Of a DNA stretch of 32,365 nucleotides, positions 26,602 through 32,263 are shown one piece after another. Made by a program: the position numbers and the translations under genes. Source of the DNA: a virus; the IMG/VR virus record IMGVR_UViG_3300024432_000042, positions 1-32,365 of that record; one strand, given 5' to 3'. The notes beneath the pieces were generated by a model. It was not told the origin of the DNA. It made no database searches and saw only the letters and a list, made by a program, of their open reading frames with translations. How positions within the stretch are numbered: position 1 is the stretch's first letter; each line of letters starts with the position of its first letter.

Positions 26602-27570
26602 CTAATTCAATTTTTTCCTTTCAATCCTTCTTGTTTCCCAATCCCAGCAAGTACGATGCCAATCTGAAGCTACTATCTCTTCAATATAATCGTACCTGTT
26701 GTTTCGGTCTAGGTATGCCATCTTAATAGGCCACGCGACATGCTGTATCCATGGACAGCGGAAGGTATTTTCCCCATCAAGAAAGCGAACACAGTCTTCC
26801 ATAAATTCAACATGGGTGCATTGTTCAAGTAGAGGCATGTGGCCTCCAACCATATCCTTCCCCTTATACATGTCTACGTCCAGGGTTGTTTTGATAATAT
26901 CCTCGTACCGGGGGACACTGGTGTAGATATGGCAGTTGTTACTGAATACATGATACATCCCCAGTTTGAACCCGGCAGCGGAAGCTATGAGTTCTTGTAG
27001 CATAGTCATGTGTACTATATTCGCCCCCAGCATCCCCCAAATAAAATCATTTGACCTATTGCATACAGTCATATTTAAGCTATCGGTTTCGTCGACTCTA
27101 AAGTAAATGTGAGTATTACATGGTCGGTCACTGGTTCGTGCATTAGGTCCATCATATACGACATCCCACATGGACAAGACAGCTTGGCGACTGCCGGGAA
27201 TTTTGTGTAGCAAGTCAATGAGTTGGGGGATTTGGAATACCGGATTGGCCCATCGCCACCCGTATGCTCCACGGAGAATTCCATCATCAGCGTACTCCTT
27301 CATTTGTTTGTTAAATTTAGATATCCACTCAGCATCGTTGCTGCCCGCCATCATCCAAATAAATTCCATACAGTGGAAAAACGGGTTAACCCTTCTAACA
27401 GGGCAATTGAGTAGACGCTCCTCAGGAAATTGTATGGTTAGAAACGTCGGGGCGGGCATTACCATCGCTGGTCCGTTCCTGGTCTGCTCCATTAGAGCAC
27501 AAGTACGGAATAATTGTAGCCCTTCTACGTATGCTTGAGGCGCATTTCGCCCTGTGATCTCTATAATCAT
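26602..27570 (-). CDS. Thymidylate synthase family enzyme (possible dUMP hydroxymethylase)
   Basis: This 322-residue protein has the ThyA family core: RRVNPFFHCMEFIWMMAG (59-76), GAYGWRW (101-107), catalytic Cys151 in DRPCNTHIYFRV, phosphate-binding RSND (172-175), an N-I-V-H segment with Asn184, and the nucleotide-binding HIY (214-216). The enzyme adds a one-carbon unit at C5 of dUMP (methyl in thymidylate synthase, hydroxymethyl in phage hydroxymethylases) using methylene-tetrahydrofolate. The WGMLGAN arrangement is the form seen in phage homologs rather than in bacterial ThyA. Asn184 aligns with the Asn that selects dUMP, whereas dCMP hydroxymethylases usually have Asp there, so dUMP is the likely substrate. 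Adjacent genes for base elaboration favour hydroxymethylation, but plain thymidylate synthesis is not excluded. Confidence 0.85.
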   Translation of the reverse strand: MIIEITGRNAPQAYVEGLQLFRTCALMEQTRNGPAMVMPAPTFLTIQFPEERLLNCPVRRVNPFFHCMEFIWMMAGSNDAEWISKFNKQMKEYADDGILRGAYGWRWANPVFQIPQLIDLLHKIPGSRQAVLSMWDVVYDGPNARTSDRPCNTHIYFRVDETDSLNMTVCNRSNDFIWGMLGANIVHMTMLQELIASAAGFKLGMYHVFSNNCHIYTSVPRYEDIIKTTLDVDMYKGKDMVGGHMPLLEQCTHVEFMEDCVRFLDGENTFRCPWIQHVAWPIKMAYLDRNNRYDYIEEIVASDWHRTCWDWETRRIERKKLN

Positions 27571-27699
27571 GCGCGTAACCCTTTGTTTTATATAGCATTA
27601 TATTGTAAGCCCGTCTACTAGCAGAGTTTTTAGGCAATAGCTAGGCAAGGGCCACCCTTAGATTTAGCGTCGAGCGGCGTCTGGTAAAGCCATTTTAGC
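27571..27699 (-). promoter_or_regulatory. Intergenic region with leftward -10 box before the ThyA-family gene
   Basis: On the minus strand TATAAT occurs at 27602-27597, 27 nt before the ATG at 27570. A weak AAGGG lies about 10 nt before the ATG. No good -35 is seen. A short AAGGG/CCCTT inverted repeat (27647-27659) is also present. No gene fits in the gap. Confidence 0.35.
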
Positions 27700-28545
27700 T
27701 CAATAGGCCGCATAACCCCGCTTACTCCGGCCAGTGCCGGTCAGAACGCGACAATACTTATCAAATTCGCATAGGCAGTTTTGGAAGTCTTGCATACAGT
27801 CTTTCCAGTCTAGCATTTCCGCAGCATCCCGTATAGAATGCTCAAAGCTAGATTCTGTTACCTTGCGTTCCCAAAACCATGACAGCCCTCGAAGCGACCC
27901 TGGTCCCGGCGCACAGAATTCAAACCAGTCTGTAGAGGCTTGTAGGGGATGCCCCGTAGTATTCTTTAAATCTGCTACGATTTGGGCAGAAAGGAAGCTA
28001 CCTATCCCGTCAATACGTTTGAACCAATGCCAATAGTCTAAACAGTTAGGTTCACAAGATGCAGGGGTAATGTCTATTGCTTTTTGGAGTACCTCTACAC
28101 AGTAGTCCACTTTATCCATCTTGCGGCCATGCGTTGTAATGAGGTATGCCCCACTCCACACTTTGTCCCCAGCAGCCTGACGGTCTTTTAAGACCTGCCA
28201 TAGCTTCGTATGGGGGGAAGGTACTATGCTGAACTTTATTGCTTCAAGCGTTTCGGGCCAGTTAAAAAGACGCGCCGCGACAATAGCAACTTCATAGTAC
28301 TCTCCGAAGATATCCGGAGTATAGTTTTCCCTGATCCATCGCGTAACACGATCGTCTTCCCTGTGAACGTTGCAGAAATACGTCCACTGGAATACTTGAT
28401 CGTCGCTCCATGGTCGTGGATCACCATTTTCCTTTTTAGCACGGATGCTCTCCCGTTCAGATATCCAATAGGCCAGCAGCTCCGGCCTTGTATAAGCCTT
28501 TCCATTGACCTCTAAAATCGACTCGCTTGCCTCCCAACCATCCAT
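27700..28545 (-). CDS. Thymine hypermodification pyrophosphorylase-like protein (aGPT-PPlase family)
   Basis: The 281-residue protein resembles the helical family described as alpha-glutamyl/putrescinyl thymine pyrophosphorylases, related to the helical domain of 5-hmdU DNA kinases. Matching features are RESIRAKKENGDPRPWSDD (31-49), FCNVHREDDRVTRW (57-70), a helix-hairpin-helix-like segment FKRIDGIGSFLSAQIVADL (175-193) and GPGSLRGL (214-221). In phages such as SP10 and phiW-14, enzymes of this group replace an activated pyrophosphate on 5-hydroxymethyl-dU in DNA with an amino acid or polyamine. Ribosome site AAGGAG is 8 nt upstream. The gene overlaps the 3' end of the glycosyltransferase gene by 89 nt, so the two are tightly coupled. 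No separate DNA kinase is seen here. The assignment comes from motif memory, not from alignment. Confidence 0.65.
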   Translation of the reverse strand: MDGWEASESILEVNGKAYTRPELLAYWISERESIRAKKENGDPRPWSDDQVFQWTYFCNVHREDDRVTRWIRENYTPDIFGEYYEVAIVAARLFNWPETLEAIKFSIVPSPHTKLWQVLKDRQAAGDKVWSGAYLITTHGRKMDKVDYCVEVLQKAIDITPASCEPNCLDYWHWFKRIDGIGSFLSAQIVADLKNTTGHPLQASTDWFEFCAPGPGSLRGLSWFWERKVTESSFEHSIRDAAEMLDWKDCMQDFQNCLCEFDKYCRVLTGTGRSKRGYAAY

Positions 28546-29254
28546 CTTTTGACTCCTTCTCTACCGCTTTGATGTACGGGCCGAAGCGTTCTTCTAGCCA
28601 GTAACAGGCTTCAGCTTGCATTTCAGGTGTTCGGTATAGACTGCACCCTCCGGGCGCATTACAACTCCCCCAATCTTGGAAGTAGGTGGTCATAATCTTA
28701 TTGCCCTGTCCCCTCGCTAATAGGGTGGCATTGAGTACCACATCAGAAAGGATAGGATACTTAGCAAGATCAGGAATTGTACCAACCATTCTACGATTGA
28801 TTCCCTGGATACATATGACCTTGCCATTTTCATTAAATGGTGGCTTCTGTACATGACCCATTTGACGGGGGTGGACTCCCACCAGTGCTGTATCTTCAAG
28901 TAATACCTCCATATACCCCCAGAGCATTAGCAATCGCTCACACTCACTCCCCTTTATTGTTTCTAAGCCAATTCGGGTATTGTTGTCTTTAAGGACTTGG
29001 CGGCTGAACACAAGGTCATCATCTAATATGACACAGCATTCGTTACCGTCCTCCATCCCATCTTGGATAATCCATTCCATTTTCCTACTGTAATTATCTA
29101 CATGGGGCGGGACAGGAATGGTTGGGATTTTATCATGCTGCTCATGTTCTTCTTCCGGTACTACAAGGAAGCATTTATCCCGCCAGGAATAGGGTATGCT
29201 TTCGTAGGTTCTTTGTTCCCCTATGCGCCCTCGGGTCATTATGTATAAGTTCAT
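28457..29254 (-). CDS. GT-A type glycosyltransferase, probable DNA base modifier
   Basis: A 265-residue protein with a GT-A-like layout: MNLYIMTRGR start (residues 1-10), W-R-C-FLVVPEEEHEQH (24-40, a nucleotide-sugar-binding-like strand and helix), and ILDDDLVF (76-83) with the DxD metal-binding acids (78-80). A segment with SRKMEWIIQDGMEDGNECC precedes it. The R...VVP.EE...K..WI......ILDDD pattern resembles the TET-associated glycosyltransferases of phages, which attach sugars to hydroxymethylated bases. A substrate of 5-hydroxymethyl-dU made through the neighbouring ThyA-family gene is an inference. GGGGAAAG lies before the ATG at 29254. Alternative: a glycosyltransferase acting on host envelope, but the absence of membrane helices and the neighbours argue against it. 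Confidence 0.6.
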   Translation of the reverse strand: MNLYIMTRGRIGEQRTYESIPYSWRDKCFLVVPEEEHEQHDKIPTIPVPPHVDNYSRKMEWIIQDGMEDGNECCVILDDDLVFSRQVLKDNNTRIGLETIKGSECERLLMLWGYMEVLLEDTALVGVHPRQMGHVQKPPFNENGKVICIQGINRRMVGTIPDLAKYPILSDVVLNATLLARGQGNKIMTTYFQDWGSCNAPGGCSLYRTPEMQAEACYWLEERFGPYIKAVEKESKDGWLGGKRVDFRGQWKGLYKAGAAGLLDI

Positions 29255-29701: not shown

Positions 29702-31063
29702 CTATCTAGTACTTAAACTCGCAAACAATTTTTTCTGGGTGTGATCCTTTTGTGCTAGAGTATCCATTACTACGTCATCCAACGTATCAGTAGCCAGTAT
29801 GTGATAAAGAAATACAGGGAATTTCTGACCTTGCCTATTCACACGCGCATTGGCTTGGTCGTAGTATTCAAGGTTCCATGTGATGCCATACCAGATCACA
29901 TGGTGGCAAGACTCTTGTAAATTAAGTCCATGCGCCATAGAAGCTGGATGGCATACCATCAACGGGTGCTTCCCTTCATTGAATTCCTGTATGTACTGAT
30001 TAGACCGTCCAGCCGACGTACCTCCTCCAAGAACAGGGATTGAACTGCCAAAGCGTCCGAGTATTCGCTCTCTGTCGTGATTGAATTCATACATAACAAG
30101 TGCAGGAGCCCCTCCAAGTTGATCAATAAGGTCCCCCAACGCTTCAAGCTTCGCGTTGTGTATTGCGGTCCAGTCACGATCTTTTGAAGTATATAACGCT
30201 CCATTACAAATTTGTCTACATTTACCTCCAGCGACAGCGGCATTTGCCGCGACCACAACTCCTTCTTCGAGTTGTGTGATAAATTCTTGTTCGATGTCAT
30301 CGTATTTCTCCCGAGCCTCTTCAGGCAGGTCCACGTAAATGCGCTCCTGTAGAACAGCAGGCATGTCCAAATAATCGTTTGCAGCTAACCGAAGTACCAG
30401 AGGGTCTATCCTCCCCATTATAGCTTCCCATGCGCCTTCATTGGGGTAGAATTTGTAGGGTTCCCAAGCATTACTGTGGAAAAACTTATTTCGGTAATGG
30501 GTGACGTATCGGCCCAATGCGTTTCCTTCGTCCATTATGAATACTTGGCCGAATAAATCCTCTAGCCCGTTGGGGATCGGTGTCCCGGTCAGAATCCACC
30601 TGCGATCGAACCGGGGGAAGTGGGGCCTCATTAGTTTGAATCTTTTCGTTGTTGAGTTTTTGAACTTGGTGCTTTCGTCTACGCATACAACAGTCCACTC
30701 CTTGCGGTGCGAAGCAGTAGGGGCGAATAACCATGCCAGCCCCTCGGGGTTAATGATGTGTATGTCTACGTCTAAACGTAGCATCGCAGCTTTATCTGCC
30801 CCATGTATGACGGCATAAGTAAGTTCATTAAACTCTATCCACTTTTCTATTTCGTCAGGCCAGACATTGTAGCATGGTCGCAGGGGAGCGATGACAAGCA
30901 TCCCTTTAGGAGCTAGACCTTTAGCACGGAGAATCTTGTATGCCGCGAGGCACACAGCAGTCTTGCCCAAGCCAGGATCCAAGAACAGACCCCCGCTCCC
31001 CTGCGATAATAGAAGCTTCATAGCACGAAGCTGGTATTCGTGTGGATGCCAATGCTCACTCAT
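29702..31063 (-). CDS. SNF2/SF2 helicase (DEAD/DEAH-like)
   Basis: A 453-residue helicase with the classical motifs: HEYQLRAM (8-15, motif Q-like), Walker A DPGLGKT (29-35), APLRPC (59-64, motif Ia), VDES (128-131, Walker B), LTGTP (158-162, motif III), then the second RecA domain with a GLNLQ segment (about 380-390) and QANARVNRQGQ (403-413, motif VI). It fits the short SNF2-type helicases of phages, which remodel or unwind DNA during replication and recombination. It starts at ATG 31063, overlapping the nuclease stop as ATGA. Association with VRR-NUC and a PD-(D/E)XK nuclease is common in phage recombination modules. Confidence 0.92.
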   Translation of the reverse strand: MSEHWHPHEYQLRAMKLLLSQGSGGLFLDPGLGKTAVCLAAYKILRAKGLAPKGMLVIAPLRPCYNVWPDEIEKWIEFNELTYAVIHGADKAAMLRLDVDIHIINPEGLAWLFAPTASHRKEWTVVCVDESTKFKNSTTKRFKLMRPHFPRFDRRWILTGTPIPNGLEDLFGQVFIMDEGNALGRYVTHYRNKFFHSNAWEPYKFYPNEGAWEAIMGRIDPLVLRLAANDYLDMPAVLQERIYVDLPEEAREKYDDIEQEFITQLEEGVVVAANAAVAGGKCRQICNGALYTSKDRDWTAIHNAKLEALGDLIDQLGGAPALVMYEFNHDRERILGRFGSSIPVLGGGTSAGRSNQYIQEFNEGKHPLMVCHPASMAHGLNLQESCHHVIWYGITWNLEYYDQANARVNRQGQKFPVFLYHILATDTLDDVVMDTLAQKDHTQKKLFASLSTR

Positions 31064-31353
31064 TTATTTTCTTCCAAAGCGCCGTCTAATATTCCACAAG
31101 CGTCTTCGTAATTGTCCGTGTAACTCGCCTCAGTATTGTGGTCCCAAAGCTGGTGGAGTCGGTAATCTTGTATCTTACTAGGCTTTTTCCCGAGCTTCTT
31201 AAATTCAATCCATACGTGATACCCGTAAGGATTAATGAATAGGTGGTCTGGCCATCCTCGTTGCCCAATGACATTGATCTTAAGTGATATGTAACCGATG
31301 CTGAGAGCATAATCTGAAGTTTTTCTTTCTAAAGCACTTTCTAGAATTGGCAT
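31060..31353 (-). CDS. VRR-NUC domain nuclease
   Basis: A 97-residue single-domain nuclease. The VRR-NUC family's PD-(D/E)XK core is seen as GWPD (33-36), IEFKKLGKKPS (49-59) and IQDYRLHQL (61-69): Asp36, Glu50 and Lys52 are the probable metal and catalytic residues and Gln62 is the conserved family Gln. Stand-alone phage VRR-NUC proteins cut branched DNA such as Holliday junctions or flaps. It overlaps the upstream gene by 13 nt and the helicase gene by 4 nt, which suggests a helicase-nuclease pair. Confidence 0.92.
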   Translation of the reverse strand: MPILESALERKTSDYALSIGYISLKINVIGQRGWPDHLFINPYGYHVWIEFKKLGKKPSKIQDYRLHQLWDHNTEASYTDNYEDACGILDGALEENK

Positions 31354-32009
31354 GGGCCTCCATTAGCCGTGCTAAATTGACACCACTTGCAAGTCCACTG
31401 AGGCTTAGGTATGAATTCTTCCAGTGGTGTGTCCTCAATCGTTTGGATCTCCTTCATCAACATAGGCTTATACTCACCCATCATTGAAGCAGGGTAGTGG
31501 ATCTTTTTATTCTGCTTTTGGTCAAGGTAGACCGCCGTAACATCTGCCCCTTCTTTGAGGGGGTGTTGAAGCAAACTTACGACACCATAAATCCATTGCT
31601 GGTGAGTATGCTCAGGGTAGATTTTACCTGTCTTATACTCAAATATCTGTATGTAGTCATCCGGCGGTACAAACTTGAGATCCATAAAGCCCCGGAGCAT
31701 AACGCCAGAGTGGTCATAATCACAAGGGAGCATTTCCTCATCTATCCCCCATTTATGCTCAGGCTGGCAATCGTAAGTTTCCCGCAGGCTAAAGAAGAAC
31801 TGTCCGTAGTGTTCATGAATATCTGGGTGAAGCATTTCGCTATGCCCATTGACGAAAGCTTCTAACGAGTTGTGGATTTCAGTACCTCGTTCCATAGCTG
31901 GGGACACGATAAATTCTACTTCCACTTTGTCTATGTAATTGAATTTGAATTTAGCCGGGCATTTCGCAAATGTAGCCAGCCGTGAATAAGAGTAGGGGCC
32001 ATACTTCAT
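31341..32009 (-). CDS. PD-(D/E)XK nuclease, Cas4/RecB-like with probable Fe-S cluster
   Basis: A 222-residue nuclease with the RecB/Cas4-type arrangement: SYSRLATFAKCPAKFKF (7-23, first Cys17), RGTEIHNSLE (41-50, His46), GFMDLKFV (107-114, Asp110), FEYKTGKI (123-130, Glu124 and Lys126), QQWIYGVV (137-144) and the C-terminal WTCKWCQFSTANGGPCQF (205-222, C207, C210, C220). The four cysteines can hold a 4Fe-4S cluster as in Cas4 and AddB. Such proteins are exonucleases in phage replication and recombination. No CRISPR array or other cas gene is present, so a CRISPR role is not suggested. Confidence 0.92.
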   Translation of the reverse strand: MKYGPYSYSRLATFAKCPAKFKFNYIDKVEVEFIVSPAMERGTEIHNSLEAFVNGHSEMLHPDIHEHYGQFFFSLRETYDCQPEHKWGIDEEMLPCDYDHSGVMLRGFMDLKFVPPDDYIQIFEYKTGKIYPEHTHQQWIYGVVSLLQHPLKEGADVTAVYLDQKQNKKIHYPASMMGEYKPMLMKEIQTIEDTPLEEFIPKPQWTCKWCQFSTANGGPCQF

Positions 32010-32263
32010 TGTATAATGCTCCCCGGTGGGTCAGGGTTTTTGAGTTGTTTGATTTCTAGTATCTCTTCTATCAACTCTACCCTATTAAGGAGATTCTCAC
32101 ACATAAACAGAAGGCACAGAATTGGCCTGTCCATGAGCTTACCATCCGCCAGGTCTAGTTCGAATCGCCTTGCCAGTGCTTCAGCTATTGCCCGTATCAT
32201 AGCAGCTTCTTCTTCTGCTCCCATATTGGGGTCATTAGCTGGTCCACCTATTTCACCTACCAT
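32006..32263 (-). CDS. Unidentified small helical protein
   Basis: An 85-residue protein. AAGGGAAGAAG precedes the ATG at 32263. It begins with a polar Gly/Pro segment, then a helix of acidic and alanine residues (about 15-36), then an amphipathic stretch around 50-73 (CLLFMCENLLNRVELIEEILEIKQL) that may dimerise. The stop overlaps the start of the Cas4-like gene by 4 nt. I do not recognise the family. It is probably co-expressed with the nuclease genes. Confidence 0.55.
   Translation of the reverse strand: MVGEIGGPANDPNMGAEEEAAMIRAIAEALARRFELDLADGKLMDRPILCLLFMCENLLNRVELIEEILEIKQLKNPDPPGSIIQ

Follow-up and report, generated by a model that had tools for sequence, protein, structure and literature searches.

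The IMG/VR virus record IMGVR_UViG_3300024432_000042, a linear record of 32,365 bp analyzed here over its whole length (the window), carries three leftward genes in a row that encode a ThyA-family enzyme, a helical protein of the HMUDK_hel family, and a glycosyltransferase (GT). This three-gene set is a conserved cassette present in dozens of other phages, and the enzyme beside HMUDK_hel has been exchanged repeatedly between a GT and a DNA kinase, the two never occurring together. We consider it probable that thymine carrying a sugar, in the manner of base J, is the product of the GT-type cassette, with the GT glycosylating ThyA-derived 5-hydroxymethyldeoxyuridine (hmdU) in DNA and HMUDK_hel acting as a DNA-side subunit shared with the kinase-type systems.

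A preliminary description of this DNA, made by reading the letters, had placed the three genes in the same row and had listed Cys151, WGMLGAN, FCNVHREDDRVTRW, GPGSLRGL, and ILDDD as their signatures, and we found every one of these in the window proteins. Gene order is retained in relatives of the window (identity up to 85%), which, together with the profile E values given below, indicates that the three gene identities are not due to chance.

Glycosyltransferase and kinase as alternative partners of HMUDK_hel

To survey the partners of HMUDK_hel, we combined three IMG/VR scans (with the GT, the window HMUDK_hel, and an M6-type HMUDK_hel as queries) with profile searches of all open reading frames (ORFs), and counted loci as HMUDK_hel clusters at 90% identity (n = 146). 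A GT of the GT-A type was present in 85 clusters and a kinase in 43, and none had both (Fisher P = 7e-23, uncorrected for the relatedness of the loci, which makes such raw P values too strong). The GT label of one locus (L138) is weak (36 bits at first and missed by the final model), so that 84 is the safer GT count. Genes for ADDT (amino acid:DNA transferase) were found in 27 of the 43 kinase loci versus 0 of the 85 GT loci, and ThyA was found in 84 of the latter. The scans based on HMUDK_hel alone gave 49 loci with a GT, 41 with a kinase, 17 with neither, and 0 with both.

Among the 18 other clusters, 12 have a longer, GT-B-like or unclassified enzyme (about 290 to 440 amino acids) at or near the partner site. 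Eight of these belong to one family with Glycos_transf_1 (PF00534) support, and hhalign connects two more to that family (E = 1e-10). The remaining two are unclassified, with no match in PHROGs. Assignment of the GTB2 enzymes (L131 and L164) as GTs was also considered and could not be shown.

The two partners also occupy equivalent positions. In M6, HMUDK_hel (gp055) adjoins the kinase (gp054; PF18748), with ADDT (gp051; PF18724) close by, and SN1 and Ab18 are arranged alike. In all three phages the kinase immediately precedes HMUDK_hel, which is where the window has its GT. The GT precedes HMUDK_hel in 59 placements and follows it in 30; 52 of the 59 lie within 150 nt and 31 overlap by more than 20 nt. 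The complete 50.8-kb isolate genome of Brevibacterium phage LuckyBarnes has ThyA (gp41), two TAGT-family GTs (gp40 and gp39), and HMUDK_hel (gp38) as consecutive genes and no kinase. Its tandem GTs could make a disaccharide, and its ThyA (L003:6436-7989) is 517 amino acids long with a long C-terminal extension.

On the HMUDK_hel tree, which is a quick tree with many weak inner branches, the label changed between GT and kinase at least 10 times. When four long-branch rows were removed, 7 GT/kinase changes remained, or 9 when any glycosyl partner was set against the kinase. All 6 of 6 independent, supported pairs of glycosyl and kinase partners went in opposite directions (sign test P = 0.03); the same test for GT-A enzymes alone was underpowered (median P = 0.25). 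These repeated changes, together with the identical HMUDK_hel residues described below, indicate that the helical protein persists while the adjacent enzyme is exchanged.

The helical protein

The 281-residue protein matched PF18723 (HMUDK_hel) at 118.4 bits (E = 4.9e-34; Pfam cutoff, 25 bits), and this profile search, which the preliminary description had named as a check, placed the protein in that family. The activity implied by the term "pyrophosphorylase-like" was not supported. Pfam now names the family "5-hmdU DNA kinase, helical domain," and not a pyrophosphorylase. Eighteen residues are invariant in an alignment of 54 sequences, and the window protein has the family-wide conserved F57, N59, R62, D65, T68, G214-P215-G216, R219, G220, C259, E260, and K263. 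The conserved residues are identical for the GT- and kinase-partnered sets; in both, G-P-G..R-G of the GPGSLRGL motif and C-E and K of the CEFDKY motif are conserved at 0.98 to 1.00. HMUDK_hel probably takes no part in the kinase chemistry, given that it stays while the enzyme beside it changes.

HMUDK_hel is present in M6, ViI, and phiW-14, which have known amino-acid- or amine-derived thymine modifications, and is absent from SPO1, SP-15, and YerA41. Plain hmdU has been reported in SPO1 DNA, and since SPO1 lacks HMUDK_hel, the protein is not needed for making hmdU; a role as mere hmdU supplier was ruled out on this ground. In ViI (Vi01, NC_015296.1), the 5-hmdU kinase and HMUDK_hel genes stand at 38239 to 38826 and 87558 to 88565, about 49 kb apart, which indicates that the helical family is more than a kinase-fused domain. 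No PDB homolog of HMUDK_hel was found by sequence. Its AlphaFold2 model is confident (pLDDT 92.9), and the top-ranked folds include AlkA, MutY, EndoIII, AGOG, and the queuine salvage enzyme DUF2419 (E > 0.2; TM ≤ 0.4), a weak resemblance to helix-hairpin-helix glycosylases that may hint, and no more, at a DNA-glycosylase-like, base-handling fold.

These observations bear on whether HMUDK_hel, with a sugar still being placed on hmdU, might itself be an enzyme (for instance, one that follows the GT or works on the hydroxymethyl group) rather than a DNA-presenting subunit. We regard this as unlikely. About 20 of its residues are near-invariant with any partner, including the charged R62, D65, R92, D192, D206, R219, E260, and K263, which would fit a catalytic site too, and the fold is not clearly known. 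However, a reaction of its own would have to suit phosphorylation and glycosylation alike and yet be dispensable for hmdU, as SPO1 indicates, and a partner role accounts more easily for why HMUDK_hel sits immediately next to the enzyme that makes the first decoration.

Search for a kinase branch in whole records

The window has no end repeats, and part of the genome probably lies outside it, so absences within the window alone would be little proof. We therefore searched 52 whole GT-type records, among them the window, two reference genomes that are complete, and six contigs that carry end repeats, and found no match to PF18748, to a broader 15-member kinase model, or to ADDT (PF18724) in any of them. 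In the same kinase search, 8 of 9 kinase-type control records scored strongly, and in reverse, the GT was found in 0 of the 9. End repeats of 50 or 127 bp were present in 6 of 10 GT-type contigs checked; these six are probably complete, as judged by end repeats only, and the 127-bp repeats may equal an assembler k-mer on a circular molecule. The lack of a visible hmdU kinase noted earlier for the window thus extends to the whole genomes of its relatives, and of the "sugar- or amine-decorated" thymine proposed there, the sugar is favored by a GT that likely acts on thymine, whereas the amine is not, given the missing ADDT.

It is improbable, in our view, that these phages have the full amino-acid pathway, with a kinase and ADDT that have diverged too far to be recognized or are encoded outside the recovered sequence, and that the GT adds something else. 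The window is incomplete, and phiW-14, which has putrescinyl-thymine and HMUDK_hel, gives no PF18748 match, showing that kinases can escape the Pfam model. Against this stand the negative results with the broader model and with ADDT across the 52 records, as well as the absence of any locus, among 146, in which GT and kinase co-occur.

ThyA homolog and base specificity

The window ThyA matched PF00303 (E = 2.8e-19) and phrog_5131 (E = 2.5e-77), and its closest characterized relatives are M6-type enzymes. In an alignment with E. coli ThyA, T4 gp42, and M6, it shares Cys151, Asn184, and the loss of Trp80 with the M6 type. Asn or Asp at the selecting position of ThyA decides between dUMP and dCMP, and Trp80 of E. 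coli ThyA keeps water from the methylene intermediate. Asn occupies this position and Trp80 is lost in 137 of 137 ThyA homologs from both types of cassette. The Asn column ruled out a dCMP-type enzyme, and the window ThyA is predicted, from its alignment, to be a dUMP hydroxymethylase, which backs the earlier suggestion of thymine rather than cytosine hypermodification. The choice between a hydroxymethyl and a methyl product is perhaps not settled from sequence alone (PMC5977210).

We assign correspondingly little probability to an ordinary thymidylate synthase or a dCMP hydroxymethylase, with a GT that modifies hydroxymethylcytosine as in T6. The phrog_842/TAGT family is named from the T6 enzyme, which transfers glucose onto glucosyl-hydroxymethylcytosine (PMC13216743), and this would suit such a reading. 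The selecting residue is Asn, not Asp, in all 137 homologs, though, the nearest characterized relatives are of the M6 type, and HMUDK_hel is otherwise known from hmdU systems.

Glycosyltransferase

The window GT matched phrog_842 in PHROGs (E = 5e-19) but gave only 12.8 bits (E = 0.11) with PF20691 (TAGT), below the Pfam cutoff of 27.5 bits. Within its own alignment, 41 of 53 members match TAGT, with a best E value of 3.5e-27. We therefore describe it as a distant TAGT relative rather than a threshold member of PF20691. An LDDD motif, expected to bind metal and nucleotide sugar, occupies residues 77 to 80, with D78-D79-D80 invariant and L81 nearly so. The AlphaFold2 model (pLDDT 94.7) matched GT-A enzymes in the PDB, e.g., COLGALT1 and KfiA (E = 2e-4 to 5e-3), and clearly predicts a GT-A fold.

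When GT relatives were gathered regardless of HMUDK_hel, the helical protein was absent from only 4 of 137 loci, namely, two Manatee phage records and two fragments in which the GT lies at the edge of the contig. Seroconversion GTs are frequent in phages, but it is very improbable that this GT targets host surface glycans and has its genomic place by accident, since HMUDK_hel accompanies it in all other loci and since it is small, single-domain, located in a replication-gene block, and strictly exchanged with a DNA kinase.

Proposed pathway

Glycosylation of hmdU in DNA, the reading that we favor, would proceed in three steps. The ThyA homolog would convert dUMP to 5-hydroxymethyl-dUMP, and the phage polymerase would then incorporate hmdU for some or all of the thymine. 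After replication, DNA-bound HMUDK_hel would offer hmdU to the adjacent GT-A enzyme, which would take a sugar from its nucleotide-sugar donor and attach it to the oxygen of the hydroxymethyl group. M6-type phages would use the same HMUDK_hel for the P-loop kinase, and the phosphate would later be displaced by an amino acid, so that the GT type may replace the kinase/ADDT branch with a one-step sugar transfer. With hmdU as the common acceptor, the chemistry would thus depend on the partner: the kinase would lead to a phosphate and later an amino acid, the GT to a sugar. Each catalytic step is an inference, as are the nature of the sugar and the idea that HMUDK_hel presents the DNA.

Several points weigh against this pathway. 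We know of no biochemistry or mass spectrometry of GT-type members. The kinase and HMUDK_hel genes of ViI are far apart, so that even kinase-type phages do not always keep the two side by side, and a GT-HMUDK_hel gene fusion, sought as direct proof of contact, was not found. The HMUDK_hel model had no significant PDB fold match (nothing at E < 0.001). The Manatee Spring phage (MW202897), whose genome is complete, encodes ThyA and the GT but not HMUDK_hel, suggesting that the GT may be able to work without it. HMUDK_hel and this GT were found in neither the YerA41 nor the SP-15 genome, two phages with sugar-bearing DNA.

If the proposed pathway is correct, these phages add a ThyA-derived, base J-like modification to their DNA, and the GTs form a family of enzymes that glycosylate thymine, not cytosine, in DNA. 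Solitary phage TAGTs would gain a defined acceptor that can be tested, hmdU in DNA, as well as a partner. A broader reading, which we rate at slightly less than even odds, is that HMUDK_hel is a general "hmdU-presenting" subunit that has been replugged repeatedly into unrelated enzymes, namely, P-loop kinase, GT-A, and GT-B enzymes (some with a PIG-L-like de-N-acetylase), that many solitary TAGTs are hmdU GTs, and that sugar-bearing thymine is common in the DNA of environmental phages.

Variant loci around HMUDK_hel

In four HMUDK_hel/GT loci, a gene for a PIG-L-like de-N-acetylase lies beside the GT (L175:2080-2898, L182:4923-5507, L199:596-1144, and L198:7617-8279); the matches in L175 (E = 5e-6) and L182 (E = 3e-4) are both below the Pfam cutoff, and L199 and L198 were assigned by similarity. 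Such an enzyme could convert a base-linked GlcNAc to an amino sugar. Two long Hyphomicrobium-type contigs (L271:3814-7883 and L273:3790-7931) have RecA and a uracil-DNA-glycosylase-superfamily gene followed by HMUDK_hel and ThyA, with no kinase or GT found, and HMUDK_hel possibly has a cellular, perhaps defensive, use there. DefensePredictor validated a 5-hmU kinase and a thymidylate synthase in defense (PMC13092281). A Sulfotelmatobacter metagenome-assembled genome (L280:1316-2392) has a Tet_JBP oxygenase (E = 6.5e-10) and then HMUDK_hel, which suggests that hmU is produced on DNA there and not via ThyA. Four further loci (L201, L204, L206, and L217) form an HMUDK_hel clade with no ThyA, kinase, or GT found nearby and with neighbors that include DUF5131, DUF4326, and a C5 cytosine methylase.

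Gene layout in the window

The cassette features are collected in Table 1. The GT/HMUDK_hel overlap is exactly as long as first described, and it looks genuine because a good AAGGAG Shine-Dalgarno site precedes the HMUDK_hel ATG; this arrangement suggests translational coupling of the two genes. Upstream on the cassette's strand (29702 to 32263) are genes for an SNF2/DEAD-type helicase, for a small protein that resembles nucleases and matches the phrog_93 endonuclease, and for a PD-(D/E)XK exonuclease, which places the cassette within a replication block. In a close relative, the stretch past the window edge encodes a family A DNA polymerase.

Table 1. Cassette genes, their overlap, and conserved motifs in the window
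Feature	Position	Strand	Basis
GT-A-fold glycosyltransferase (predicted), 265 aa, distant TAGT relative	28457..29254	-	phrog_842, GT-A fold
HMUDK_hel / aGPT-PPlase1 helical protein, 281 aa; proposed DNA-side subunit	27700..28545	-	PF18723
ThyA-family enzyme, 322 aa, predicted dUMP hydroxymethylase (Cys151 nucleophile, Asn184 for uracil)	26602..27570	-	PF00303, phrog_5131, alignment
GT/HMUDK_hel gene overlap, 89 nt	28457..28545	-	ORF coordinates
AAGGAG Shine-Dalgarno-like site of HMUDK_hel, within the GT gene	28553..28558	-	sequence
HMUDK_hel motif FCNVHREDDRVTRW, residues 57-70, invariant core F-N-R-D-T	28336..28377	-	conservation
HMUDK_hel motif GPGSLRGL, residues 214-221	27883..27906	-	conservation
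HMUDK_hel motif CEFDKY, residues 259-264	27754..27771	-	conservation

Comparison with known systems

The thymidine hypermodification cassettes of M6, ViI, and phiW-14 were reportedly described by Lee et al. in 2018 and 2022. The GT-type cassette resembles them in its dUMP-type ThyA homolog, HMUDK_hel, frequent HD/YfbR-like phosphohydrolase, and location near a DNA polymerase, and differs in lacking the PF18748 kinase and PF18724 ADDT and in having a GT at the kinase's place. A cassette of the M6/ViI/phiW-14 kind is also listed for SN1 (PMC9476957).

The gene combination, which the preliminary description did not recognize from characterized systems, has equivalent neighbors already reported for uncultivated pelagiphages, in which thymidylate synthase, aGPT-PPlase1, 5'-deoxynucleotidase, and a putative beta-glucosyl-HMC-alpha-glucosyltransferase are co-located near DNA polymerase (PMC9599517). 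The ThyA, aGPT-PPlase1, and TAGT combination itself was therefore already known, and these HTVC023P-type cassettes are most probably the same system as that of the window. The parts of that report available to us describe co-location and propose a "broader functionality," with no mention of kinase replacement, mutual exclusion, or partner exchange. As far as the literature consulted shows, the partner exchange and the tie to solitary TAGTs appear to be new, although the gene combination may have been listed earlier.

The window GT shares the predicted GT-A fold and the sequence family of TAGT (PF20691), whose T6 member is a beta-glucosyl-HMC-alpha-GT. It differs in that its predicted first acceptor is hmdU in DNA instead of glucosylated hmC and in having HMUDK_hel as a partner. 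Solitary TAGT homologs of unexplained role occur in 288 of 753 phage genomes (PMC13216743, 2026).

Glucosylated hmdU was unreported in phage as of 2019 (PMC6449724). Like the predicted window product, the DNA of YerA41 and SP-15 bears sugar on thymine or a thymine-derived base, the former as a thymidine substituent of ~1 kDa with oligosaccharide character (PMC9023294) and the latter as glucosylated dihydroxypentyluracil (PMC5977210). Use of this cassette by either phage was ruled out, since the proteins are absent from both genomes, and their chemistry must come from other enzymes.

In kinetoplastids, base J arises when hmdU made by JBP is glucosylated by JGT. The predicted product of the cassette is likewise an O-glycosylated hydroxymethyluracil in DNA. 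Unlike in base J synthesis, its hmdU would come from ThyA at the nucleotide level and not from a TET/JBP oxygenase, the GT is a different one, and HMUDK_hel is an additional component.

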